Source: Haloplanus salinarum
GTDB lineage: Archaea; Halobacteriota; Halobacteria; Halobacteriales; Haloferacaceae
DNA length: 64,000 bases
Assembly (NCBI RefSeq): GCF_024498175.1
Contig: NZ_CP101823.1
Coordinates: 186,001-250,000, forward strand
Direction of reading: 5' to 3'
Shown here: positions 36,440 through 64,000 of the stretch, in pieces
Layout: every line of letters starts with the position of its first letter
How positions within the stretch are numbered: the stretch's first letter is position 1
Program-made: the position numbers and the translations under genes
Notes under the pieces: generated by a model
Database searches by the model: none
What the model saw: only the letters and a program-made list of their open reading frames with translations
Told to the model about the DNA's origin: nothing

Positions 36440-37776
<1,337 letters not shown>

Positions 37777-37857
37777 TACATTTGTAATTAGGTATGCTGT
37801 CTTAAGCATCTATTGGAATATCAGGCTGTGCTATCGTCGGTGGATTGTGTCGTCGTT

Positions 37858-48848: not shown

Positions 48849-49577
48849 ATGAACGCTGTCGTGCTCGCGGCCGGCGAGGGGACGCGACTCCGCCCACTCA
48901 CCGAGGACAAACCCAAGGGGATGGTCGAAGTGGACGGGAAGCCGATCCTGACGCACTGTTTCGAACAGCTGGCCGAACTCGGTGCCGACGAACTCGTCGT
49001 CGTCGTCGGGTACCGCAAGCAGGACATCATCGAGCACTACGGCGACGAATTCGAGGGCGTTCCGATCACGTACGCGCACCAGCGCGAACAGAAGGGACTG
49101 GCCCACGCGCTACTGACGGTCGAAGAGCACGTCGATGACGACTTCATGCTCATGCTCGGCGACAACATCTTCCAGGCGAACCTCGAGGACGTCGTCCGCC
49201 GTCAACGCGAAAACCGCGCCGATGCCGCGTTCCTCGTCGAGGAGGTCGACTGGGACGAAGCCAGCCGATACGGGGTCTGTGATACGAACAAGTACGGCGA
49301 GATCACCGACGTCGTCGAGAAACCCGAGGATCCACCCTCGAACCTCGTGATGACGGGCTTCTACACGTTCTCGCCCGCGATCTTCCACGCCTGCCATCTC
49401 GTCCAGCCGTCGAACCGCGGCGAATACGAGATCTCGGAGGCGATCGACCTGCTGATTCAGAGCGGTCGGACGATCGACGCCATTGGGCTCGAGGGATGGC
49501 GCGTGGACATCGGCTACCCGGAAGACCGAGACGAAGCCGAAAGACGGCTCGCCGACGACAATGACGTCTCCGAGTGA
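48849..49577 (+). CDS. aglF: Sugar-1-phosphate nucleotidyltransferase (AglF-like)
   Basis: 242 residues, single-domain nucleotidyltransferase without the beta-helix. Motifs: VVLAAGEGTRLRPLTEDKPKG, LMLGDNIF, VVEKPEDPPSN and GWRVDIGYPEDRDEA. Similar to haloarchaeal AglF, a UTP--glucose-1-phosphate uridylyltransferase used in N-glycosylation of the S-layer protein. Substrate could equally be dTTP; symbol given by similarity only. Followed by a glycosyltransferase gene 57 bp on. Confidence 0.8.
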   Translation: MNAVVLAAGEGTRLRPLTEDKPKGMVEVDGKPILTHCFEQLAELGADELVVVVGYRKQDIIEHYGDEFEGVPITYAHQREQKGLAHALLTVEEHVDDDFMLMLGDNIFQANLEDVVRRQRENRADAAFLVEEVDWDEASRYGVCDTNKYGEITDVVEKPEDPPSNLVMTGFYTFSPAIFHACHLVQPSNRGEYEISEAIDLLIQSGRTIDAIGLEGWRVDIGYPEDRDEAERRLADDNDVSE

Positions 49578-49634: not shown

Positions 49635-50759
49635 ATGTCGTCCGTGATGCGAATCCTCCGCGTCGCCCAGAAACTCTACCCCGAGGTGCCCGGCGGCGGC
49701 ACCTACCACGTTCACGCGATGAGTCGCGATCAGGCTGCGATGGGGCACGACGTGACCGTGTTGACCGTCGGGACTGAATCCGACCGTCCCCACGTCGAGG
49801 AGCGCGAGGGGTATACGGTCGTCCGGTATTTCCCGACGGTCTCGCTTCTCGGGAACGATATCTCGGCCGGTCTCGCGCGTCACCTCGCCGGGATCGACAC
49901 GACCGAGTTCGACGTGTGCCACGCCCACTCGCATCTCTACTTCTCGACGAACCTCGCGGCGCTGAAGCGGTGGATCGGTGGGCTTCCACTCGCGATTACC
50001 AACCACGGGCTCTACTCCCAGAACGCACCGCAGTGGGTCTTCGACGCCTACCTCCGGACGCTCGGCCGGTGGACGTTCGATCGGGCCGACGCCGTCTTCT
50101 GTTACACCGACACCGACCGCGAACGGGTGCGCGACCTCGGCGTCGACGCCCGGATCGAGGTGGTGCCCAACGGCATCGACACCGGACGATTCAGGCCCGA
50201 CGGCCCCGGAGGCGACCGGATCGATCACGACGGCCCGGTCGTACTGTTCGTCGGCCGGCTGGTCGAGGGGAAGCGGCCGGCCGACGCCGTACGGGCGCTC
50301 GCCCGCGTCCGGGACGCCCACCCCGACGCCGCGCTCTACCTGTGTGGCGAGGGGCCGCGACGGGACGACCTCGTCGCGCTCGCGGCAGAACTGGGGATTC
50401 GCGAGGCCGTCTCCTTCTGCGGACAGGTGCCCTACGACGACATGCCGGCCGTCTATCGGAGCGCCGACGCGCTCGTCCTGCCGAGTCGGGCCGAGGGACT
50501 CCCCCGGACCGTGATGGAGGCGATGGCGACCGGCGTCCCCGTCGTGTCGAGCGACCTACCGCAGGTGCGGGAGCTGGTGTCGAGCGGGGGGTACACGGTC
50601 GAGTTGGGCGACGTCGAGGGGTTCGCCGAGCGGATCGATGCGTGTCTGGAGGGACAGTATCCGGCGGGTGGGCGCGAACGGATCGTGGCGGAGCACTCGT
50701 GGAGCGACACCGTAGAGCGGACGACGACGGTGTTGGAGAGGATTCGTCGGTCTCGGTGA
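49635..50759 (+). CDS. Family 4 glycosyltransferase
   Basis: 374 residues; start ATG 49635 or, four codons later, the MRILRVAQK ATG. GT-B fold: N-terminal VPGGGTYHVHAMSR, C-terminal VVLFVGRLVEGKRPADAVRAL and SRAEGLPRTVMEAMATGVPVV, which holds the E-x7-E donor motif. Cytoplasmic or membrane-associated transfer of a sugar from a nucleotide donor. Its last ~330 bp have a broken second copy at 51427-51758, across the HicBA genes. Confidence 0.92.
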   Translation: MSSVMRILRVAQKLYPEVPGGGTYHVHAMSRDQAAMGHDVTVLTVGTESDRPHVEEREGYTVVRYFPTVSLLGNDISAGLARHLAGIDTTEFDVCHAHSHLYFSTNLAALKRWIGGLPLAITNHGLYSQNAPQWVFDAYLRTLGRWTFDRADAVFCYTDTDRERVRDLGVDARIEVVPNGIDTGRFRPDGPGGDRIDHDGPVVLFVGRLVEGKRPADAVRALARVRDAHPDAALYLCGEGPRRDDLVALAAELGIREAVSFCGQVPYDDMPAVYRSADALVLPSRAEGLPRTVMEAMATGVPVVSSDLPQVRELVSSGGYTVELGDVEGFAERIDACLEGQYPAGGRERIVAEHSWSDTVERTTTVLERIRRSR

Positions 50760-51761: not shown

Positions 51762-53222
51762 TCACTGGAGGTAGCCGAGATCCTCCAGTCGCTCTTTCGT
51801 GTCGTCGGTCATGTCGACCGTGCCCGAAACGTCCGCGTGCTCGAACGAGTCCAGCCAGTCGTCGAGCGTCGACGATAGTCGACTGACCTGCTCGGGATTG
51901 TCGTCGGACAGATCGGTTCGTTCCTCCGGATCATCGACTACGTCGTATAGTTCGGTCGAGCCATCCGATCCCCGGATCAACTTCCACTCGTCGTCGCGGA
52001 TCGCCCGGAGCGAGCGGTCGTAGCGGCGCACGTCGTCGGGGAGAGTCCCGACCCGTTTCTCCAACGCGTCCATCGACGGCTGTGGGGCGAGGTATTCGCA
52101 GATGGCGAACTCGCGCGGATCGGCGTCGGCGTCGGGATGGAACGACCGTCCCTGTGCCTGTTCCCTGAATTCGGGTGCGTCGACGCCCGCGGCGTCCAAC
52201 AGCGTCGGTCCGAGATCGGTCAACTGGACGAGGTCGTCGACCGTCCCGCCGCCCGTGAAGGGGCCGCCGTGGATGACGAGTGGCACGTGTAGTAGGGTGT
52301 CGTACAGGCAGTACTGGTGATCCATCAGCCCGTGATCGCCGATGTTCTCGCCGTGGTCCGCGGTGACGACGAAGATCGTATCCTCCCACTCCCCGGCCGC
52401 TTCGAGGTGGCGGCGGAGTTCGCCGATCCGGTCGTCGAGGTACGCGATCTCGGCGCGATACAGGGCACGCAGGATCTCGAAGTCGCGGTCGGTCATCTCG
52501 ACCGTGTCCGCAATGTAACCCCACGCGTCCTGTGGCACGTCCATCGCCTCCTCGAACGTGACGCCGTCGGGCAAGAACCGCTCGGCGTGTTCCCGTGGCG
52601 GCCGGTATTCGAGGTGCGGTTCGAGGTAGTTGACGAACAGGAAGAACGGGCGGTCGTCGGTTCGATCCGCGAGCCAGTCGGCGATCCACTCGTTCGTTCG
52701 CTTCGCGCCGTCGTCGCCGCGGTTGCGCAGGAACTGGCCGTAGACGGCGTTGGCGAGGTTGGTCAGGGGGTTGCCGTCGAAGAGTCGGCGCACGACGGCG
52801 CGGAGCTTGTCGGTTCCCTCCTCGGTGCGTGCGATCTCGCCGAGGTCCGTGTCGGTCTGGACGTACTGCCAAGTCTTCACGAACGTCTCGAACCCGCGGG
52901 CGAAGCCGAACTCCTCGCTGATCCAGGTGTTGTTCGAGACAGCGACGGTCTCGTAGTCGGCCACAGCGAAGGTCTCGGCCAGCGTTTGGGGCTCGTCGGA
53001 GAGTCGCTTGTGGCCCGCGTGAGCGCCGTGTTTGGAGGGGTCGGTGGCGGTGAAGAGGGAGGCGTGGGAGGGGAGGGTCCAGGGAGCCTTCGCGATAGCC
53101 GTGTCGGCAGAGACCCCCGACCCGGCTATCTCGACTAACTCCGGCGTGATCGTGCTCCGTTTCGCAAGATCAACCGCTGACACTCGTGCCGTATCCAGGA
53201 CCAACAGGACGACGTTCGTCAT
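51762..53222 (-). CDS. Sulfatase-fold (alkaline phosphatase superfamily) protein 1
   Basis: 486 residues. N-terminal metal site VVLLVLDTARVSA (Asp10). The nucleophile position is Thr49 in WTLPSHASLF, where sulfatases have Cys or Ser in CxPSR. A second metal site is in VVTADHGENIGDHG. The C-terminal sulfatase region has ELYDVVDDPEERTDLSDD, and the end is LEDLGYLQ. No signal peptide or TM helix, so it works inside the cell. Its start overlaps the stop of protein 2 by 4 bp, forming a two-gene unit. Confidence 0.87.
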   Translation of the reverse strand: MTNVVLLVLDTARVSAVDLAKRSTITPELVEIAGSGVSADTAIAKAPWTLPSHASLFTATDPSKHGAHAGHKRLSDEPQTLAETFAVADYETVAVSNNTWISEEFGFARGFETFVKTWQYVQTDTDLGEIARTEEGTDKLRAVVRRLFDGNPLTNLANAVYGQFLRNRGDDGAKRTNEWIADWLADRTDDRPFFLFVNYLEPHLEYRPPREHAERFLPDGVTFEEAMDVPQDAWGYIADTVEMTDRDFEILRALYRAEIAYLDDRIGELRRHLEAAGEWEDTIFVVTADHGENIGDHGLMDHQYCLYDTLLHVPLVIHGGPFTGGGTVDDLVQLTDLGPTLLDAAGVDAPEFREQAQGRSFHPDADADPREFAICEYLAPQPSMDALEKRVGTLPDDVRRYDRSLRAIRDDEWKLIRGSDGSTELYDVVDDPEERTDLSDDNPEQVSRLSSTLDDWLDSFEHADVSGTVDMTDDTKERLEDLGYLQ

Positions 53223-54595
53223 TTGTATCCGAGGGCCTTCAGGCGCTCTTCGACCCCGCTCGACTCGTCCAATTCCGGAATTTCGACGTTCTCCGAGGTC
53301 CGTTCTATCTTCTCGAATCGTTCGTCGAGCACCTGCTGGAATCGCTCCATTACGTCCGGATGGTCCTCGGATACGTCCCGGGTCTCGTCGGGATCGGTTT
53401 CGAGATCGTACAGATATCGCTCTTTCTCTTTCCCGTCGAAGAGGAACTTCCAGCGGTCGGTTCGGAATCCGAATCGGAGCGCGTCGTCGCCGCGCATCTC
53501 CTTCTCGGTCACGATCACGTCGAACGATGGCGATTCCCCGTCCCGGATCAGCGGTAGTAACGACTCTCCGACCATCCGTCTCCGCATCTCCTCGGAGAGA
53601 GTCGCGCCAGCGAAATCGAGTGCAGTCGGCAGGATGTCCACACAGCGGACGGATTCGTCGACCGTCCGCCCCTGCGAAATTCCTGCCATCTCGGGGAACC
53701 TGATGATGAGCGGAACGTGCGTGAGAACGTCGTACGGCAGGTTGCTGTGTCCGTAGTCGTCGTGTTCGTAGAACTCGTCGCCGTGATCGCCGACGATGGC
53801 GACGGTCGTGTTCTCCAGATCGCCGTTACGGTCGAGTTCGCCAAGGAAGCGACCCAGTTCGGCGTCCAAGTACTCCACCTCCAGCCGGTAGTTCCTCCAC
53901 AGTTCCTCGTGTTCCGCCTCGGTTACCTCGTGCGGCGAGTTCACCGCGGCCTTTCGCCACAGCTGCTCGGCCCGGAACTTGTTCCGATAGGTAAAGTCGT
54001 CGCCCGGCAGGTACGGCCCGTGGACGTCCATGTACTGCGTCCAGAGGAACCACGGCTCCGCGGTCTCGGCGATCCAGTCGGCGAGTTGTGCGTCGATAGT
54101 CGATGCCGGGAGATACGGCGTCCGGCTGAGGATACGGACGAATTTGTTCAGATACCGAAGCACGTCGTCCGGCAACGCTTCGAGGACGCCGTCGGGATCG
54201 TAGGGCAGGATGTTCTCCTCGAACGTGTCGAATCCCCGGTGGAAGTTGCGGAGTCGGGAGACGTTCGGATTCGAGTGAATCGCGCCCGTGGTGTAACCGT
54301 TGTTCTTGAACTCCTCCGCGAACGTCGGCTGCGTGTCTTCGAGATACCAGTGGCCGCCGTATTCGAGCGGGTAACGCCCCGTGAGCATGGCGGTCATCGC
54401 CGGGGCGGTGCTGATACCCTGGGAGAAGCAGTTGGAGAAGACGATTCCGTCGTCGGCGAGTGCGTCGAGATTCGGCGTTTCGAAGGCGTCGTCGCCGAAG
54501 ACGGCATCGTATCGGAGTGAGTCGACGACTAGGAAGAGTACATTCGGTGAATCGCCCGGCGTGTCCTGATCGTTGTCTACTGGTGATTCTGTCAT
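53219..54595 (-). CDS. Sulfatase-fold protein 2
   Basis: 458 residues. Metal site NVLFLVVDSLRYDAV (Asp25). Thr63 of STAPAMTAMLTGRYP takes the nucleophile place. The distal metal site is VGDHGDEFYEHDDYGH. The tail DLETDPDETRDVSEDHPD and ending ERLKALGYK match protein 1. Cytoplasmic by absence of signal. Substrate unknown: release or transfer of sulfate or phosphate on glycan precursors is the family range. Confidence 0.87.
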   Translation of the reverse strand: MTESPVDNDQDTPGDSPNVLFLVVDSLRYDAVFGDDAFETPNLDALADDGIVFSNCFSQGISTAPAMTAMLTGRYPLEYGGHWYLEDTQPTFAEEFKNNGYTTGAIHSNPNVSRLRNFHRGFDTFEENILPYDPDGVLEALPDDVLRYLNKFVRILSRTPYLPASTIDAQLADWIAETAEPWFLWTQYMDVHGPYLPGDDFTYRNKFRAEQLWRKAAVNSPHEVTEAEHEELWRNYRLEVEYLDAELGRFLGELDRNGDLENTTVAIVGDHGDEFYEHDDYGHSNLPYDVLTHVPLIIRFPEMAGISQGRTVDESVRCVDILPTALDFAGATLSEEMRRRMVGESLLPLIRDGESPSFDVIVTEKEMRGDDALRFGFRTDRWKFLFDGKEKERYLYDLETDPDETRDVSEDHPDVMERFQQVLDERFEKIERTSENVEIPELDESSGVEERLKALGYK

Positions 54596-54768
54596 ATCTC
54601 CACCGTCTTGTCAGATGGATTTATTGGTTGGCTGTCTAAATCTTTGCACGTGTCGGATCACATATGAAAATATCGGCGTGTGGCATATGTGGCGCCTCGA
54701 AACTGACGGCGGTCGTCTCGCATGCCGAACCTGATATTTTAATAATATCATGTGATAACTAACCAGTC

Positions 54769-55680
54769 GTGTACGGCCTCTCCCAACTCAAAACGGTCGT
54801 TAAACACCCACGGTGGTTGTACCGGGAGCCATACCGGATATACAACCACGCCCGACAGGGAGTCCCGTATTATCGCGCCGGTGTAGATATCTTCGAGCAA
54901 GACTGGGATAACTTGGTAATTCTCGACGCGGCACGATACGACGAATTCAGTAGACATCTGGACGAAGCCGGCTTCGTTGATGGAGAGTTGCACAAGTATA
55001 CATCCAGGGGTGCCACGTCGTCGGAGTTCATCCGAGGGAATTTCACCGACCGAGAACTACACGATACCGTCTACGTCTCGGTGAATCCTCACTACGCCCG
55101 TCTGCGTGACGAATTGAACTGTTCGGTCCACGACTACATTCCACTACACAACAACGAGTATCGGGATGCCATCGATGGTCTGACGACCCAACCACGAACG
55201 GTTACCGAACAGGGAATCGCTGCTTCCGAAACGTACCCCAACAAACGCTTGATCGTACACTATCTCCAGCCCCATCAGCCGTATTTAGGGAGTACGGCAC
55301 AATCGAACCTCGACCACGGTCACGGGCTGATCGATACGATTCGCAAGAACAGCATCACCGACGACGAGTTGCGAATGTATTACCGCGAGAACCTAGATCT
55401 GGTCCTCGAAAGTGTTCTGACGCTACTGGACGAACTCGTCGGGCGAACTGTCATCACCGCCGATCACGGCGAGTTGCTAGGTGAGTCCGTTCCCCCGCTC
55501 GGCGTTCACGAATACGGACACTTCGCCGGAATGTACGTTCCGGAGTTGTTGGAGATACCGTGGTTCGTGGTGTCGGCTCGCTCCGAGAAAGTTATCACCT
55601 CCGAGGTGCCAGCGACCGAGGAGGATATCGATATGGATGAGGTGAAGAGCCATCTCCAAGATCTAGGATACCGCACCTAA
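54769..55680 (+). CDS. Small sulfatase/LtaS-like fold protein 3
   Basis: 303 residues, GTG start at 54769. NLVILDAARYDEF holds the first metal Asp53. The next motif, TSRGATSSEFIRGNF (Thr83), is closer to the Thr nucleophile loop of lipoteichoic-acid-synthase-type enzymes than to CxPSR. VITADHGELLGES is the second metal site. Shorter than other members by about 150 residues, with no C-terminal sulfatase domain, but it still ends LQDLGYRT. Region is A/T-richer than the flanks. Convergent with the Wzy-like gene. Confidence 0.8.
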   Translation: MYGLSQLKTVVKHPRWLYREPYRIYNHARQGVPYYRAGVDIFEQDWDNLVILDAARYDEFSRHLDEAGFVDGELHKYTSRGATSSEFIRGNFTDRELHDTVYVSVNPHYARLRDELNCSVHDYIPLHNNEYRDAIDGLTTQPRTVTEQGIAASETYPNKRLIVHYLQPHQPYLGSTAQSNLDHGHGLIDTIRKNSITDDELRMYYRENLDLVLESVLTLLDELVGRTVITADHGELLGESVPPLGVHEYGHFAGMYVPELLEIPWFVVSARSEKVITSEVPATEEDIDMDEVKSHLQDLGYRT

Positions 55681-55727
55681 TTTACGACGAAGGGGATGGT
55701 TTCGAGTTCTTTCCAGCACGCCGAGTG

Positions 55728-56954
55728 TCAATCGCTCGGAACGGCCGAAGGTATGCTTTCATCGTCATTTATCGTCATCCGGAGTGCGTATCCGGTCGCC
55801 CCCGCTAACAGGAACGTGTCCGTAGAGAATCCGAAAAATGTGACGGATCCGAACAGGTCGGCGATCATAAACGTAACAAGCAGGCCGACAATCGTCAGTT
55901 CGTTGACCGAAACGGCAGTCCGGAGGCAGTTCAGCGCCCCCAGTTGAATCCGAAGGTAGGCGAGTAACCCGAGGACGCCGGTGTTGAGAAGCATTCGCAG
56001 GTAGCCGTTGTGTGGTCCGGATGGGGTGCGTCCAACGATATATGGTTCAAGCAGTTGGGACATGTTCCCTGCGCCGTATCCGAAGAGTAACGCTCTCGGG
56101 CTCTGTGAGACCGCTTCGACAGCAGCGATCCACAACGGCACGCGATTGTTGAGGTCGTATGTCGCGAGTGCGGTCGGTCCTGGGAGTATGTTGAATACGA
56201 TCCCGAACACGACTAGGCTCCCGACTGCTCCGATGGCTACAACCGGAACGCTCGCCAGTGCCCCCCAGTATCGCTGTGCGAATACGACTGCAAATCCACC
56301 TGTGAGCCCTAGGAGTATGGAGCGATTCTCTGCGAGTACGATCACTACGAGACAAAGCGCTAGTCCGGCTGCAGCAACTCTGCGACGCTTTCCGCGTATC
56401 GTCTGTGGAACTAACCCCCAGACGCCTGCTCCTGCGATAACACCGAGCGACTGGGGATTCTGGAAGATGGATTTGATGACGAAACCCGATCCTGGTTTCC
56501 AGCGAAACGCCGGAAACGGCGCCAACAGGAGCGCGAGGACACTCATCGACAGCCCGACGACACCGAGACTGAGCAGGAACGACCGTTTTGGAATCGCCTC
56601 CGGGAGGAGGATCACGAGTACGACCGCTGAGAGTACGTAGGCAGGTACGCGGAGCAGCCCTGGTAGATTGGGATTCAACGCAAGATGACTTCCGTAGAGG
56701 ACGAGCAGCGTTGTAAGTGCCAGTAACGTTCCGCGGTGAATGCGGAATTCGGATTTGTGCTGTACGCAAAGCGTGCCGACATAGACGAACGCCGTTAGGC
56801 ACAGTGTCTGTGAGAGTAACGGCGGTGCGAAGGGCGTGTAGAGGAGTAACGTTGTGAGAAGAAGTCCTCCTACAGCGACTTCCCGTAGCGTCGTGTTCAC
56901 AATATATCTTGTTGCCTGATGGATAATAATTGGTTCTCCTTGACAGTCGTTCAC
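55728..56954 (-). CDS. O-antigen ligase/polymerase-like membrane protein
   Basis: 408 residues with about ten TM helices, starting VAVGGLLLTTLLLYTPFAPP. A large loop near the C-terminus (EAVSQSPRALLFGYGAGNMS then GPHNGYLRMLLNTG) carries the HNxYL-type motif of Wzy/WaaL proteins. Such enzymes polymerise or ligate lipid-linked glycans on the outer face of the membrane. Its ATG overlaps the stop of the upstream glycosyltransferase (56951-56954), so it is coupled. Confidence 0.87.
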   Translation of the reverse strand: MNDCQGEPIIIHQATRYIVNTTLREVAVGGLLLTTLLLYTPFAPPLLSQTLCLTAFVYVGTLCVQHKSEFRIHRGTLLALTTLLVLYGSHLALNPNLPGLLRVPAYVLSAVVLVILLPEAIPKRSFLLSLGVVGLSMSVLALLLAPFPAFRWKPGSGFVIKSIFQNPQSLGVIAGAGVWGLVPQTIRGKRRRVAAAGLALCLVVIVLAENRSILLGLTGGFAVVFAQRYWGALASVPVVAIGAVGSLVVFGIVFNILPGPTALATYDLNNRVPLWIAAVEAVSQSPRALLFGYGAGNMSQLLEPYIVGRTPSGPHNGYLRMLLNTGVLGLLAYLRIQLGALNCLRTAVSVNELTIVGLLVTFMIADLFGSVTFFGFSTDTFLLAGATGYALRMTINDDESIPSAVPSD

Positions 56955-58075
56955 AAGGAGGGCGCTAATTCTCGATAAAGGTCAGCGTATTTATCAACTG
57001 TCTGTCGGATCGAGAACCGGTGTATCGCCCGTTTGTATCCTTGTTCCGCAAGTTCCTGACGAAGTTCCGGATTTTCGAGGAGGCGAACGACTGCGGTTGC
57101 TATCGCCGACGGGTCTTCGGGCTTGACGAGCAGTCCGGTGTCCCCGATGACCTCGTCGAACGCGGGGATGGTCGTACCGACGACCGGCCGCTTGGCGATC
57201 ATCGCCTCGGCGACCGTGAGGCCGAACCCCTCCCACAGCGAGGGAAAGACGGCAACGTCGAAGTTCGGGAGGAAGGGATACACCTCTGGGACGTACCCCG
57301 TGAAGTGAATATCCTCGTCGTATCCCGTCTCTCTTGCCGCCGTCTCCAGCTCCTCACGTAGCGGTCCATCCCCTAAGATGAGGAGCTTCGCGTCCTCGCG
57401 TTCTTGCTTTATTTCTGGGAAGGATTGGATTATATACGAGAACCCCTTCTGTTCCAGATGTTTTCCCACTGTTCCGATAATACAATCCGATGGGGAGAAG
57501 GGCGTGTACTGGTCAAGGACCTCGTCGGAGCGATCGAACGTCGCTGTTATCGCATCCACGTCGACCCCGTTGTGGATGGTTCTCCGCTTCGTCGTATCGC
57601 CGAGGAGCCATTCCTCCCAATCCGAATACGAGTCGGACACTGCACCGGTGACGCCGACGACGACATCGGCGAGCGGTAAACTCACCCCGTTTACCGTTCG
57701 CGTGAATCTCGAATACCCCGAGTGAACGTTGTGTTCGACGCTGACGATGTGAGGGATTCTACTTGCCCGTCCAGCAGTTCGCCCCCACACGCCCGAAATC
57801 GGCGAATTGGTGTGCAGGATGTCGTGTGTCGACCGGCGGAGATGCCCGATCAGGCGATAGAACGCACCGAGGTCGTAGTTCGACGAGGCGCCGAGGTCGA
57901 CGACGGTCGTGCCGTGTTGCTCCAGCTCCTCCCGAAACGTTCCCTCGCCGAACATGTAGTAGACGGTCGTCTCGAACTCCGAGTCAGGGAGGTGGCGACA
58001 GATGTCGAAGAGCAGTTGTTGGGCTCCGCCGTGTTCCTTGTTCAGGTTCCCGATGATGAATGCAATGTCGATCAA
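56951..58075 (-). CDS. Family 4 glycosyltransferase
   Basis: 374 residues, GT-B fold. N-terminal IGNLNKEHGGAQQLLFDI, C-terminal IIGTVGKHLEQKGFSYIIQS and FPSLWEGFGLTVAEAMIAKRPV with the E-x7-E motif. Transfers a sugar during assembly of the glycan. First gene of a two-gene unit with the Wzy-like protein. Not close to the 49635 glycosyltransferase beyond the fold. Confidence 0.92.
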   Translation of the reverse strand: MIDIAFIIGNLNKEHGGAQQLLFDICRHLPDSEFETTVYYMFGEGTFREELEQHGTTVVDLGASSNYDLGAFYRLIGHLRRSTHDILHTNSPISGVWGRTAGRASRIPHIVSVEHNVHSGYSRFTRTVNGVSLPLADVVVGVTGAVSDSYSDWEEWLLGDTTKRRTIHNGVDVDAITATFDRSDEVLDQYTPFSPSDCIIGTVGKHLEQKGFSYIIQSFPEIKQEREDAKLLILGDGPLREELETAARETGYDEDIHFTGYVPEVYPFLPNFDVAVFPSLWEGFGLTVAEAMIAKRPVVGTTIPAFDEVIGDTGLLVKPEDPSAIATAVVRLLENPELRQELAEQGYKRAIHRFSIRQTVDKYADLYRELAPSL

Positions 58076-58203
58076 TGGAATCGATCTTAGTATCTGTCAG
58101 ATGAACACGGCAATCAACTTTTCGCAAAACTGAGGCCGCGTGTTTGGCTGCACGTTCTTTTCGACACCGATGATTTCCCATTAGTGAGGTAAGATTTTTA
58201 GCG

Positions 58204-58218
58204 CGTGTAGTCTACACG
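58204..58218. promoter_or_regulatory. 7-bp dyad just before the GT2 gene
   Basis: CGTGTAG-T-CTACACG, 9 bp before the ATG at 58227, just after a TATA-like GATTTTTAGC (58193-58202). It could be an operator or a short leader hairpin. Confidence 0.35.
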
Positions 58219-58226
58219 ACGACAAA

Positions 58227-59168
58227 ATGTCTGATCCGCTCGTCTCCGTTGTTATCCCAGCATATAATCGCCCCCGGAAACTCGAACGTGCGCTCCAAAG
58301 CGTCCTCGATCAACAGTATTCTGCGATTGAAATTATTGTCGTTGACGATTACTCCTCTCCCCCGATTCGTGAAGTTCTAACAGTCGAAGATCTCCCGTCT
58401 TCCTCGATCCAAATCATCCGACACGATGAGAACAGAGGCGGAAGCGCTGCTCGCAATACGGGGATTGATGCTGCTGAGGGGGAATACATTGCTTTCCTTG
58501 ATGACGATGATGAGTGGAGGAAAACAAAGATTGATCAGCAAGTGAGAGTATTTCAATCAGCATCAGAAGAGCTTGGTCTGGTCTATACTGGTATTGAACA
58601 GAGAGATTCAGGCGGAAAAATAAACGGAGTGACGAGACCAGAAACTCCCAGAAATATCAAAAAGCGTCTCTTGCTTGACGACTTCATCGGGACCTTTTCA
58701 TCTATAATGGTCCGCAGCGAAGTCCCCGAGGCAGTCGGAAAGTTGGATGAGAGATTTCCCTCATGGCAAGATTGGGAGTTCTATATCCGTGTTGTACAGT
58801 CGTACGAGGTCCGCGCTATTCCAGACCCACTGGTGATTCGGCATAATGAGGGCGAGCAGATCAGCGACAACTTCGAACGAAAGAAAAACACGACAGTACC
58901 GTTACTAATAGACAAATACCGTCCACTCGCTGATGAATATGGGTGGACATTTAAAAGGAAGTGGCTAGCAAATCTGAACTTTCGTCTTGGCTACTCCGCA
59001 CTCTCAAACGCCAAATACGACGAAGGAAAACGGTTCTTGCGCCGCTCGATTCGTATGAACCCGTTCGCAGTTGAGCCATACCTGTATCTCGTCTTTGCTG
59101 TTGGTGGCAAAAGGACGTATGAACCGGCAAGGCGATTGAGGCGCGCCCTTGTTCGGAAGCTGAATTAA
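58227..59168 (+). CDS. Family 2 glycosyltransferase (low G+C)
   Basis: 313 residues, GT-A fold. VSVVIPAYNRPRKLERALQS starts the domain. VDDYSSPP and FLDDDDEW hold the donor and metal-binding Asp residues. The C-terminal ~90 residues lack TM helices. Codons are much richer in A and T than those of neighbours, which suggests recent arrival from another lineage. Together with the next gene it forms a low-G+C block. Confidence 0.9.
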   Translation: MSDPLVSVVIPAYNRPRKLERALQSVLDQQYSAIEIIVVDDYSSPPIREVLTVEDLPSSSIQIIRHDENRGGSAARNTGIDAAEGEYIAFLDDDDEWRKTKIDQQVRVFQSASEELGLVYTGIEQRDSGGKINGVTRPETPRNIKKRLLLDDFIGTFSSIMVRSEVPEAVGKLDERFPSWQDWEFYIRVVQSYEVRAIPDPLVIRHNEGEQISDNFERKKNTTVPLLIDKYRPLADEYGWTFKRKWLANLNFRLGYSALSNAKYDEGKRFLRRSIRMNPFAVEPYLYLVFAVGGKRTYEPARRLRRALVRKLN

Positions 59169-59253
59169 TACTATGGTGTTCAGAAGACAGTGGCAGAAAG
59201 TCCCGTTAGCTCAACCTGCATTTTTATGTGCTGACTAATTATATCTGTACGTC

Positions 59254-60096
59254 ATGTCGTATCGGGCAAAAATAGTCAGTCAACTAAAGAAGATACGATC
59301 TAAATTGTACTCTGGATGGGTCCGCCGTGCGATCCGTCAAACGGGGCTTAATAAACCACTTTCATATCTATATTGGCATCTTCTACATTTAATCTCTGAT
59401 GATATTATTGAACATCGTATCCTAGATATCTCCGTAGAATTTCATACGACCACCCTCCACGAATATCTACGATTTCGTGATCTTGTTGGTGAACGAGCCA
59501 TTCTGGAAGATGTTTTGATATCTATTCAAAAAGATGATATTTTTTACGATGTTGGCGCTAACGTTGGAACATATACGTGCTTTGTGGCATCTAAACTCGA
59601 ATCTGGTCAAGTTATTTCATTTGAACCTGTCACTTCGAATACAAACCGACTCCGTCAAAATCTCGAATTGAATGGTCTTAGTGCAGAGACTGTGCAGGTC
59701 GCGCTTTCGGATACCAATGACACTGTTGAGTTTATGCTTTCAGATGATGCGACCGGGGCTGGTGAACATGCCATTGCGACGGACAGTGGTGGACAGACGA
59801 TCGAGGTTGAAACATCTCAGGGTGACTCTCTAATTAAAAGATACGGATTACCAAAGCCAACGGTCGTGAAGATTGACGTAGAAGGGGCCGAGCACTTAGT
59901 ACTCCAAGGTCTTCAAACGACACTCCGTGATAATTGCCGTTTGGTGTATGTGGAGGTACATCCAGAGAAAATATCTGATTTTGGCGGATCTGAATCGGAT
60001 GTTCGTTCTTTGCTCACTCAGTGTGGGTTTGAAATTTCAGAGATGGGGCAACGGGGCAATCAAATTTTCTTACGTGCACATAAACAAGACGTTTAG
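59254..60096 (+). CDS. FkbM-family methyltransferase (low G+C)
   Basis: 280 residues. SAM motif I is FYDVGANVGTYTCFVASKL, followed by SFEPVTSNTNRLRQNLELN and VKIDVEGAEHLVLQGL, all typical of FkbM. It probably methylates a sugar hydroxyl of the surface glycan. The sequence is very A/T-rich: one sampled line (59341-59400) has 20 G+C in 60. A TATA-like ATTTTTATG lies at 59220-59228. Confidence 0.9.
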   Translation: MSYRAKIVSQLKKIRSKLYSGWVRRAIRQTGLNKPLSYLYWHLLHLISDDIIEHRILDISVEFHTTTLHEYLRFRDLVGERAILEDVLISIQKDDIFYDVGANVGTYTCFVASKLESGQVISFEPVTSNTNRLRQNLELNGLSAETVQVALSDTNDTVEFMLSDDATGAGEHAIATDSGGQTIEVETSQGDSLIKRYGLPKPTVVKIDVEGAEHLVLQGLQTTLRDNCRLVYVEVHPEKISDFGGSESDVRSLLTQCGFEISEMGQRGNQIFLRAHKQDV

Positions 60097-60143
60097 TATC
60101 TCGTTTATAATCCGGAATAACGTTCATCCGTTCGAAATTTATC

Positions 60144-61682
60144 ATGTCTGATCATGGTTTCCGCGGCATCCTCGCCAGCGCCTCCGTCGTCGGGGCGGGA
60201 ATGCTCTTCTCGAAGGCGATCACCCTCTTCGCGGAGATCGCGGTCGCCCGCGAACTGGCCACCGCGGAGTTCGGTGCCGCGATTTTCGCGTACACTATCT
60301 TGCTCACGATCGGAGGCATCGCGCTCATCGGCATCCCGGAGGGCTTCACCTACTACCTCTCCATTCTGGACGAACGCGGCGACACCGAGTCCGCGTTTCG
60401 GATCGTCGTGTCGGGGGTCGTCATCCTTGCCGTCGTCCTCGGTACTAGCGTCTTCACGATATACGCCATCCCGTTCGCGCTCGTCGAACCGTTCGGCGTC
60501 TCACGCGCTCAGTGGGGGTGGCTCGAGTTACTGGCGCCGCTCGCTATCGCCTATCCCGTCTCACAACTCTCGTTCGGAATCATGCGCGGCTACGACCGCT
60601 CCCTGCCGAAAGTGCTCTCCGACGACGTACTGAACAAACTCATCGCGTTCGGCGCGCTCGGCGTCGCTATCTGGCAGAACGCCGGGATGCTGATCTTTCT
60701 GTCGTTCTATCTCGGACAATATCTTTTGAGTAGTCTATTCGCCGGCGGCTACGCGATCTACCTCCTCAAAACGAAGCTCACGCGAGTCACCGCCCTCGAC
60801 CGATTCGGCGAGGACGCTCGTCGACTCTTCTCGTACTCGTGGCCGCTTGCGTTCAAGAACGCGACGCGTCGGCTGCTCGGTAATACCGATATCGTGCTCG
60901 TCGGCGCCTTGCTCGCGTCCTCTGCCGTCGGCTACTACCGAGTCGGATACGTCATCTCTCAACTCGGGATGATCGCGTTGGTTTCGATCACGTATCTGTT
61001 TACGCCGCGTATGGCTCGTCGGTACGATAACGACGATCGGGAGGGGATGGAGTATCTGTACCGTCGAGCGACGAAATGGAGTACGCTTCTCGCCTTTCCC
61101 CTTCTTCTCACGATGATATACTATCCAACTGAACTCATCGAACTGTTCTTCGGGGCGGAATACGCCCCCGGTTCCGTCGTTCTGATCATCCTCGCCGTTG
61201 ATGTTCTCTTTCGGACCGGAATGGGAACGGCAGCAGCGGTTCTCCGGGCAATCGACCGTACGCGCGTCGATTTCGTCGTAACCGCGGTAACGACGATCGC
61301 GAACGTGGGGTTGAGCTACGTGCTCATTCGAGAATTGGGCGTCGTCGGCGCTGCCGTCGGTACGTTCTTGAGCATACTCTTCATGAATACCGTCCAGATT
61401 TTCTTGGTTTACTCGTTCGTTTCCATTCACCCGTTTTCGAAACGGTACATCACAGGGACGGTGAGTTTGGGTGTCGTGAGCGTCCTGATTTTCCTCTTGA
61501 TCGATTCTACCATCGGCGATATGACGATCGGACGAATCAACCTCTCCGTCACGATGGTGCTCTTTGCAGCCGTATTCGTTACTGCCGAGATTCTACTCGC
61601 TTGGTTCGGCGGGCTACTCATACGGAGCGAAAAGGACGCAATACACGAAGCCGTACGCGGACTGTCGTCTCGTATTCCCTGA
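60144..61682 (+). CDS. Lipid-linked glycan flippase (polysaccharide biosynthesis, MOP type)
   Basis: 512 residues with about 14 TM helices. N-terminal ASASVVGAGMLFSKAITLFA and ELATAEFGAAIFAYTILL are typical of RfbX/Wzx-like proteins. It would move lipid-linked oligosaccharide across the membrane for the Wzy-like enzyme. G+C returns to the high local level here (39 of 60 in line 60181-60240), so the low-G+C block ends just before it. Confidence 0.9.
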   Translation: MSDHGFRGILASASVVGAGMLFSKAITLFAEIAVARELATAEFGAAIFAYTILLTIGGIALIGIPEGFTYYLSILDERGDTESAFRIVVSGVVILAVVLGTSVFTIYAIPFALVEPFGVSRAQWGWLELLAPLAIAYPVSQLSFGIMRGYDRSLPKVLSDDVLNKLIAFGALGVAIWQNAGMLIFLSFYLGQYLLSSLFAGGYAIYLLKTKLTRVTALDRFGEDARRLFSYSWPLAFKNATRRLLGNTDIVLVGALLASSAVGYYRVGYVISQLGMIALVSITYLFTPRMARRYDNDDREGMEYLYRRATKWSTLLAFPLLLTMIYYPTELIELFFGAEYAPGSVVLIILAVDVLFRTGMGTAAAVLRAIDRTRVDFVVTAVTTIANVGLSYVLIRELGVVGAAVGTFLSILFMNTVQIFLVYSFVSIHPFSKRYITGTVSLGVVSVLIFLLIDSTIGDMTIGRINLSVTMVLFAAVFVTAEILLAWFGGLLIRSEKDAIHEAVRGLSSRIP

Positions 61683-61703
61683 TTTCCTGGCTGTAAGAAT
61701 GTT

Positions 61704-61715
61704 GAAAAATAAATA
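61704..61715 (+). promoter_or_regulatory. TATA box of sulfatase-fold protein 4
   Basis: GAAAAATAAATA is centred 28 bp before the ATG at 61738, fitting a leaderless transcript separate from the flippase. Confidence 0.6.
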
Positions 61716-61737
61716 GGATGGCCCAAAAGATAGGGGT

Positions 61738-63132
61738 ATGTCGGCGTCACCGCCAAACGTACTCCTCCTCTCACTCGACAGTCTCCGTGCCGATCACCTC
61801 CCGACCGCCGGATACGCCCGCGATACCGCTCCAGCGCTCACCGAATTCGCCGACCGCTCGGACGTGACCGTCTTCGAGAACGCGTTCGCGACGACGGCGT
61901 GGACGCTCCCCTCACACACGTCACTCTTTACCGGACTCCCGACGATCCGACACGGGCTCTACGACAAAGGACTCCGTATCGACCCGGAACACACGCTCGC
62001 AGCTCACCTCTCGAATGCGGGCTACGACACGGTTGCCTTCTTGAACAACGGCTGGTTGACGAACGGCGGCGTCACCGACGCGTTCGACGAGGTCATCGAG
62101 ATATTCAACCAAGATATCTCGTCCGGATTCGTCGAACGGAATCTCAACCGACTGGAGATGCTGTTCTCCATGCAGGATAGCGGTGCTGACGACTCGATTC
62201 GGCGTTTTCGGAAGCGGCTCGACGGCCCGTCCGGTTCCCGCGACGAATCGCCGTTTTTCGCGTTCTTTCACCTGATGGAACCACACTACCTGTACAATCC
62301 GAGGCGGCCGTATCACAAACAGTACGTCGGCCAGTCGGTCATGCGGTTGCTGATCAAACAGCGCGAGATATACACGCAACGTGGCAAGTACTTCGCCGGG
62401 GAAACGTCGATCTCACCGAAACAGATGCGCGGATTCGTCGATCTCTACGACTCCGAAATCCGGTATCTGGACGACAGAATCTCCACTCTGTTCGACGATC
62501 TCCGACGCGCCGACGAGTTCGACAACTCGCTCATCGTCGTCGTGGGCGACCACGGCGAACTGTTCGGTGAGCACGACCTCATCGGCCACCACTTCTCCCT
62601 CGCAGACGAGCTGCTTCACGTCCCGCTGTTCGTGAAGTGGCCTCACGGCACGAATCCGCTCGCCGCGACCCGATCGAACGCCTCCGTCAGTCTCTCGAAC
62701 GTGTTCAAGACGGTCCTTGACGTTGCTGGGGTCGAGCCGTCGACTGACTTCGACCGAGTATCCTTGCAGGAGCAACACGCGAACGACAACCGGCGGATCT
62801 TTGCCCACTACCGAGCTCCCGAATCCATGCTGGAATCGTTCCGTGACCAGGTCGCACGTCCCTTCTCGTACGACGACGAGTACGATACCGAACTATCGCT
62901 CGTTCGTGACGGCACGGACACATTGGTCGTCGCCGGCGACGACGTTCGACTGTACGACCTCTCGACGGATGCGGGCGAAACGAATGATCTGAGCGACGAC
63001 CGACCCGAGAGAGTTGCCGAGTTGCGAACCGTGCTTGACGAGCATCTGTCCCAAGAACCCCTCGCGACCCAGTCGACGGACGGTTTCAGTGAAGGAGTTC
63101 AACAGCAACTCGAAGACCTTGGATACATCTAA
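61738..63132 (+). CDS. Sulfatase-fold protein 4
   Basis: 464 residues. Metal site NVLLLSLDSLRADH (Asp14), Thr56 in AWTLPSHTSLFTGL, and the second metal site VVVGDHGELFGEHD. The C-terminal part includes VRLYDLSTDAGETNDLSDDR, ending LEDLGYI. Nearest in layout to protein 1 (same TLPSH motif) although 8.5 kb away. No signal peptide. Follows the flippase by 55 bp with its own TATA box. Confidence 0.87.
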   Translation: MSASPPNVLLLSLDSLRADHLPTAGYARDTAPALTEFADRSDVTVFENAFATTAWTLPSHTSLFTGLPTIRHGLYDKGLRIDPEHTLAAHLSNAGYDTVAFLNNGWLTNGGVTDAFDEVIEIFNQDISSGFVERNLNRLEMLFSMQDSGADDSIRRFRKRLDGPSGSRDESPFFAFFHLMEPHYLYNPRRPYHKQYVGQSVMRLLIKQREIYTQRGKYFAGETSISPKQMRGFVDLYDSEIRYLDDRISTLFDDLRRADEFDNSLIVVVGDHGELFGEHDLIGHHFSLADELLHVPLFVKWPHGTNPLAATRSNASVSLSNVFKTVLDVAGVEPSTDFDRVSLQEQHANDNRRIFAHYRAPESMLESFRDQVARPFSYDDEYDTELSLVRDGTDTLVVAGDDVRLYDLSTDAGETNDLSDDRPERVAELRTVLDEHLSQEPLATQSTDGFSEGVQQQLEDLGYI

Positions 63133-63244: not shown

Positions 63245-64000
63245 GTGAACCTAATCGACGACAACGGCAACCTCTTCGGCCTTGTCAACCTCGTCGACGC
63301 CCTCGTCGTCCTCGTCGCCCTCGCCGTCGTCGTCGCGGGCGTCGCGTTCGTCCTCTCGTCCGGTTCCGACGACACCGCCTCCGCCACCGCCACCCGTTAC
63401 GCCACCCTCGACCTCGGCACCCAGCCGGCCTACGTCGCCACCCTGATCACCGAAGGCGACACGATCCGGCCCGACGACGCGGAGAACCTCACCATCACCG
63501 ACGTCTACGCCACGGCGGCGGACGACGGTCGTCACCTCTACGCCCGCGTCCGAATCAACGGCACGCTCGATGGCGAGGACACCGTCACCTACGGCGGCGA
63601 CCCCCTCCGCGTCGGTCGCGATCTGGATCTCACGACCCCCGACTACGCCGCCGGCGGCACCATCACCGCCGTCGACGCAGCGACCCCTGACCTCCCCGTC
63701 GGCGAGACGGACGTCCTCCTGCGGACGACGGTCTCGGCCGCCAACGTCGACGCGATCCGACGCGGCGACGAGTACCGGATCGACGGTCGGACGGTCGGGA
63801 CGGTGCGGTCGGTCGAGGCCTATCGAACCGGCGAACCGGGGCGGGTGACCGCCCACGTCGGCGTCACGTACCGCACCTACCGCGCGAGCGACGGGCAGCG
63901 GTTCGCCGGTGCGCCCGTCCGGGAGGGGGTGAGCCTCCCGCTGGAGACGGACGCCTACGCCTTCGAGGGCGAGGTGGTCCGCGTGGGCGCCACGGAGCCA
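63245..64000 (+). CDS. DUF4330-type membrane-anchored protein (cut by window end)
   Basis: GTG at 63245 opens a frame that stays open to the last base (252 codons). Residues 1-12 are LIDDNGNLFGLVN, then one TM helix VDALVVLVALAVVVAGVAFVL. A beta-rich extracellular or periplasm-like part follows (EGDTIRPDDAENLTITDVYA, TVSAANVDAIRRGDEYRIDG). I recognise the short N-terminal start plus TM plus paired repeats as DUF4330. Function unknown; its 3' end lies outside the window. Confidence 0.8.
   Translation, partial: MNLIDDNGNLFGLVNLVDALVVLVALAVVVAGVAFVLSSGSDDTASATATRYATLDLGTQPAYVATLITEGDTIRPDDAENLTITDVYATAADDGRHLYARVRINGTLDGEDTVTYGGDPLRVGRDLDLTTPDYAAGGTITAVDAATPDLPVGETDVLLRTTVSAANVDAIRRGDEYRIDGRTVGTVRSVEAYRTGEPGRVTAHVGVTYRTYRASDGQRFAGAPVREGVSLPLETDAYAFEGEVVRVGATEP

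Follow-up and report, generated by a model that had tools for sequence, protein, structure and literature searches.

Which reaction do proteins with a sulfatase fold catalyse when they are encoded amid genes for glycan assembly and carry threonine or serine in an active site that lacks the formylglycine motif? This question is raised by four proteins, here A to D, of the haloarchaeon Haloplanus salinarum, encoded within a 64,000-nucleotide stretch of contig NZ_CP101823.1 (positions 186,001 to 250,000; the window, to which coordinates refer unless another sequence is named). A preliminary description of the locus had proposed that they transfer or remove phosphate-type groups on cytoplasmic glycan precursors rather than hydrolyse sulfate esters. 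In the reading favoured here, which we regard as on balance probable, A to D would be cytoplasmic metal-dependent transferases of the alkaline phosphatase (AlkP) superfamily that decorate lipid-linked glycans before flipping; the group added would most likely be sulfate, as with Agl30 and Agl31 of Halobacterium salinarum.

Four AlkP-fold proteins in a glycan-assembly cluster

The four open reading frames lie where the preliminary description had placed them and are conserved in relatives. The cluster reads as follows.

48849..49577, (+): AglF, UTP--glucose-1-phosphate uridylyltransferase (NF041313, 450 bits against a cut-off of 400)
49635..50759, (+): GT4 glycosyltransferase (Pfam)
51762..53222, (-): protein A, 486 aa, PF00884; nucleophile Thr49 (TLPSH), codon 53076-53078; metal-type residues D10, H203, D289-H290; tail ERLEDLGYLQ
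53219..54595, (-): protein B, 458 aa, PF00884, 4-base overlap with A; nucleophile Thr63 (TAPAM), codon 54407-54409; tail ERLKALGYK
54769..55680, (+): protein C, 303 aa, AlkP-fold family; nucleophile Ser84 (second residue of TSSEF), codon 55018-55020; D53, D232-H233, H251; tail HLQDLGYRT
55728..56954, (-): O-antigen ligase/polymerase-like membrane protein, Wzy_C (PF04932)
56951..58075, (-): GT4 glycosyltransferase (PF13692/PF00534)
58227..59168, (+): GT2 glycosyltransferase (PF00535)
59254..60096, (+): FkbM-family methyltransferase (PF05050; TIGR01444 above cut-off)
60144..61682, (+): Wzx/MOP-type flippase (PF13440/PF01943)
61738..63132, (+): protein D, 464 aa, PF00884; nucleophile Thr56 (TLPSH), codon 61903-61905; tail QLEDLGYI

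From about 65% across most of the window, the GC content falls to 46% at 58000-60000, where the genes for GT2 and the methyltransferase lie, and suggests that part of the glycan cluster was recently acquired. A DUF4330 protein is encoded directly downstream of D (63245-64000), and a gene for a TnpB-family RNA-guided nuclease lies in a lower-GC patch at 36727-37809.

A and B form a conserved gene pair: orthologues of A are 58-68% identical, and those of B (67% identity) each stand beside an A homologue at loci L147, L173, L091 and L195, with C adjoining the pair in Halomicroarcula (L147) and lying nearby in Halovenus (L173). An orthologue of D (77% identity) is found in Halorubrum sp. Hd13 (L204). 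Relatives of C were absent from the viral contigs and phages searched; those that are plasmid-borne carry only haloarchaeal names among the matches listed, and their annotation is mostly hypothetical. The Haloplanus genome, one contig of 3.45 Mb, contains 7 PF00884 and 7 C-like matches, so that A to D are not alone.

The sulfatase fold ascribed to all four proteins is borne out for A, B and D by PF00884 (Sulfatase) scores far above cut-off (118, 152 and 151 bits), while for C, whose sequence scores above cut-off against no family in Pfam, NCBIfam or the PDB, it comes from the AlphaFold model. Model A (pLDDT 86) has choline sulfatase and phosphonate monoester hydrolase (PMH) as its closest folds, with a Foldseek E value of 1.1e-25 to choline sulfatase 6g5z, and model C (pLDDT 93.6) is a catalytic domain of the AlkP superfamily. 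Metal-ligand motifs are retained, namely D10 and D289-H290 in A, and D53 and D232-H233 in C, the latter invariant in 51 relatives; one metal site is thereby evident, and the assertion that both are kept was too strong.

An active site probably without formylglycine

Thr49, Thr63 and Thr56 of A, B and D align to the Cys/Ser column of solved sulfatases in phmmer alignments, in agreement with the threonine nucleophile first proposed. For C that proposal was off by one residue: among 51 relatives, C included, position 84 is always threonine (33) or serine (18), position 83, the first residue of TSSEF, varies freely (A, S, T, H, M, K and others), E86 and F87 are almost fixed, and the model helix 84-92 begins at Ser84, as helix 49-58 of model A begins at Thr49. 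The nucleophile of C is thus Ser84 and not Thr83. Family-wide, the nucleophile column holds T or S in 72/72 sampled non-Cys homologues of the PF00884 type and in all 51 relatives of C, so threonine at this column is not a matter of chance.

The formylglycine motif C/S-x-P-x-R is absent from all four proteins, which read TLPSH (A and D), TAPAM (B) and S-S-E-F (C). Profile searches of the Haloplanus genome, in which controls gave matches, yielded no formylglycine-generating enzyme (FGE, PF03781) and, for anSME (TIGR03942), a best score of 23 bits against a cut-off of 349. Given the missing FGE and the lack of cysteine at the nucleophile column in all seven Sulfatase-family proteins of the genome (5 Thr, 2 Ser), formylglycine chemistry in A to D is very unlikely, and the interchange of serine and threonine at position 84 of the C relatives points to an alkoxide nucleophile instead. 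That A to D are formylglycine sulfatases after all, through an unrecognised modification of threonine, would fit their PF00884 membership; yet oxidised threonine would give a ketone and not formylglycine (argument in PMC5066984), and this, together with the missing FGE, the lack of an anSME above cut-off and the free exchange of Ser and Thr, makes such an explanation extremely improbable. Across 145 Halobacteria, PF00884 occurs in 143 genomes and FGE in just 11, and all seven genomes with top-scoring Cys sulfatases of the CSPTR type are FGE-positive (p 1.4e-9, a value somewhat biased by their choice as best matches). Cys-type PF00884 proteins with CGPxR-like motifs also occur in genomes in which FGE was not detected (L042, L043, L052, L061 and relatives).

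In the proposed mechanism, Thr49, Thr63, Ser84 and Thr56, respectively, would sit at the N-terminus of a helix on a metal site built from Asp, Thr/Ser, Asp and His and attack an activated donor; the transferred group would then be held covalently on the threonine or serine until a sugar hydroxyl of a dolichol-linked glycan accepts it, and decoration would precede outward flipping.

Cytoplasmic appearance and genomic company

The reported absence of signal peptides holds: on the Kyte-Doolittle scale A to D show no hydrophobic stretch at the N-terminus (19-residue maximum 1.39; N-terminal maxima 0.39-1.29), and the proteins look cytoplasmic, with no export signal evident from their sequences. 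Their setting among AglF, glycosyltransferases, Wzx and Wzy recurs in relatives. At least two glycan genes lie within 7 kb of 18/39 Thr/Ser-type genes, 6/9 of the TREAVP subtype and 18/27 of the C family, but of 0/16 Cys-type genes (Thr/Ser versus Cys, p 5e-4), and one or more glycan genes neighbour 66 of the 79 named C loci. Group transfer is a better reading than sulfate hydrolysis, as the preliminary description had surmised.

A to D might also be hydrolases that act in the cytoplasm as phosphatases, phosphodiesterases or atypical sulfatases and serve to trim or proof-read intermediates of glycan assembly, since superfamily members with a threonine nucleophile (NPP) do hydrolyse, and A, B and D have a further match above cut-off to Phosphodiest (PF01663). 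We consider this quite unlikely, given that they regularly accompany assembly genes and one another, that there are several copies per cluster, and that the characterised relatives bring a gain of sulfate, not a loss. S1 sulfatases such as choline sulfatase 6g5z share the fold, PF00884 and the DHG metal motif, but A to D differ from them by Thr/Ser in place of Cys, the C-terminal tail described below, the lack of an export signal, the glycan-assembly context and a genome without FGE.

A highly conserved Thr-type subfamily, APWTLPVHASLFTG, is found at L001:4473-6026 and 20 other loci in many haloarchaeal genomes, often away from glycan genes; a housekeeping role such as glycolipid sulfation would be our guess.

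A C-terminal tail common to Thr/Ser-type proteins

A survey of 88 PF00884-type proteins from 60 relatives' loci, the window and the Haloplanus genome (16 Cys, 72 Thr/Ser) revealed a C-terminus of the form L-x-x-[LM]-G-Y in 70/72 Thr/Ser-type versus 0/16 Cys-type proteins (p 1e-15), 14 of the latter 16 being about full length. The LxxLGY tail is likewise invariant in all 51 relatives of C and appears, from this survey, to be a hallmark that separates Thr/Ser-type from Cys-type proteins, a new observation. Among other open reading frames it occurs in 34/6709, mostly sulfate-handling or AlkP-like, a count biased by loci that had been fetched for those very genes.

The tail recurs on a CysD-like PP-loop protein, whose 21/21 full-length copies from different genomes in a second sample carry ERLRDLGYM, with at most one letter changed, at the C-terminus, as do those sampled earlier. 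On this protein it aligns to the native C-terminus of Escherichia coli CysD (KKRQGYF), so that a recent gain need not be assumed. Main-type APS kinases of haloarchaea carry it on an extra ~30 residues past the domain that aligns with solved APS kinases. As the divergent APS kinases L139 and L140 lack the tail and certain canonical APS kinases also end in GY, it may have arisen convergently as a helix cap; such capping or, for the CysD-like protein, inheritance from bacterial CysD are the plainer readings.

Sulfate or phosphate

The aglB cluster of Halobacterium salinarum encodes two AlkP-core proteins, VNG1056C (Agl30) and VNG1057C (Agl31), which are needed for normal N-glycan sulfation and act as iduronate and terminal glucuronate (GlcA) sulfotransferases of the N-glycan, respectively (PMC11980604). 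The di-sulfated N-glycan falls 250-fold upon deletion of VNG1056C and >50-fold upon deletion of VNG1057C, and each gene expressed in Haloferax gives a sulfated glycan (PMC11980604). Translation of the Table 1 primers of that study gave DFGHLDM and the end HLEDLGYL for VNG1056C, the end LEELGYT for VNG1057C, and VHYFQPH and KELGYIE for VNG1063H, that is C-family motifs in VNG1056C and VNG1063H and the LGY tail in all three; the comparison thus rests on short primer-encoded peptides and the published descriptions, not on full sequences. Searched by primer sequence, the VNG1056C gene was absent from the genome contigs, from 391 Halobacteria and from 26 genomes of one haloarchaeal family.

The primer-derived peptides place Agl30 with family C, which it resembles as an AlkP-core protein of a glycosylation cluster that has no InterPro family and shows both the [YF]GH motif of family C and an LGY tail; however, Agl30 is membrane-associated, with a predicted transmembrane segment at 21-39 (PMC11980604), whereas C has no hydrophobic segment, which counts against sulfate transfer by C. 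Agl31, soluble and cytosolic (PMC11980604), resembles A to D as an arylsulfatase-family AlkP-fold protein of a glycan cluster with an LGY tail, but serves another substrate in another cluster, and the nucleophile lies outside the primer peptide compared. Like Agl30 and Agl31, A to D are AlkP-fold proteins within a glycosylation cluster. A further haloarchaeal protein, Haloferax volcanii Agl7, has been linked to sulfate addition on a dolichol-linked sugar of the low-salt glycan (PMC3871713).

The strongest competitor, which we nevertheless consider unlikely, holds that A to D are cytoplasmic relatives of EptA and LtaS that take phosphoethanolamine, phosphoglycerol or similar groups from a nucleotide or membrane lipid and pass them on to glycans on lipid carriers. 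EptA, MCR and LtaS also use a threonine alkoxide on a metal site, C has their catalytic fold with MCR-1/EptA catalytic domains as best Foldseek matches (E 2.6e-8), and D weakly matches phosphoethanolamine transferase and LtaS models. For C the likeness guessed earlier is thus seen with Foldseek, but VIA-align sets EptA (Z 15.7, 14% identity) level with ulvan sulfatase (Z 15.5), and A is nearest to sulfatases and PMH. Moreover, EptA and LtaS combine an N-terminal membrane domain with an extracellular catalytic domain and work outside the membrane, whereas A to D look cytoplasmic and have neither a hydrophobic segment nor export; the haloarchaeal C also differs in its motif, [ST]-x-E-[FW].

Sulfate transfer is favoured over phospho-transfer because the nearest characterised haloarchaeal relatives, Agl30 and Agl31, are glycan sulfotransferases (PMC11980604) and share motifs and tails in the primer peptides, which speaks against the earlier preference for phosphate-type groups over sulfate. 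Certain of A to D may possibly transfer phosphate-type groups, and three points run counter to the sulfotransferase assignment: VNG1063H, a third such protein and of the C type, had no effect on sulfation (PMC11980604), the Foldseek neighbours of C are phosphoethanolamine transferases, and the sulfate donor is unexplained.

The sulfate donor

No Sat-type ATP sulfurylase, APS kinase or PF13469 sulfotransferase is recognisable in the Haloplanus genome, an absence that would suit phospho-transfer. A to D themselves differ from PAPS-dependent sulfotransferases by their fold and by having no PF13469-type Pfam match. Among the 145 Halobacteria, APS kinase (>150 bits) was found in 7 genomes, Sat-type ATP sulfurylase in 3 and a PF13469 sulfotransferase in 5, all five inside the APS-kinase set, so that the donor is probably not PAPS. 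Weak APS-kinase matches in nearly all genomes were discounted, the one in the Haloplanus genome being FtsY. At L151 and L161 an APS kinase is encoded close to C-family genes (~1.5e-4 by chance). LxxLGY-tailed APS kinases (L151:4084-4701, L161:6425-7045, L136-L138) belong to glycan clusters, close to AlkP-fold genes, or adjoin genes for Sat and a sulfotransferase.

The CysD-like protein, on the other hand, is present in 143/145 Halobacteria (in Haloplanus at C1:929412-930383, that is L226:1913-2884, with the tail ERLRDLGYM). It is co-linear with E. coli CysD from end to end, with CysD as its sole PDB sequence relative, and is called CysD-like only, as its score is below the CysD equivalog cut-off. 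By its sequence it is a near-universal candidate sulfate activator. Taken together, these observations suggest a possible sulfation system with APS, not PAPS, as donor. We tentatively sketch a PAPS-independent haloarchaeal sulfation, a reading that we consider unlikely, in which the CysD-like enzyme would make APS, the Thr/Ser AlkP-fold enzymes would transfer the sulfate through a covalent sulfo-enzyme in place of classical sulfotransferases, and the LxxLGY tail common to the transferases, the CysD-like enzyme and most haloarchaeal APS kinases might be a docking or donor-recognition element.

Implications

That halobacteria bear sulfated glycans on their surface has been known since the 1980s. 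The AlkP-fold sulfotransferases Agl30 and Agl31 were experimentally recognised and named only in 2025 (PMC11980604), and A to D are probably further members of this enzyme kind, whose family is widespread. As enzymes known to make PAPS are nearly missing from the 145 genomes, the question of the donor becomes directly amenable to experiment. For the Thr/Ser-type group, the LGY tail offers a sequence marker. Among haloarchaeal proteins annotated as 'sulfatases' or as hypothetical, many are probably misnamed transferases that decorate glycans.
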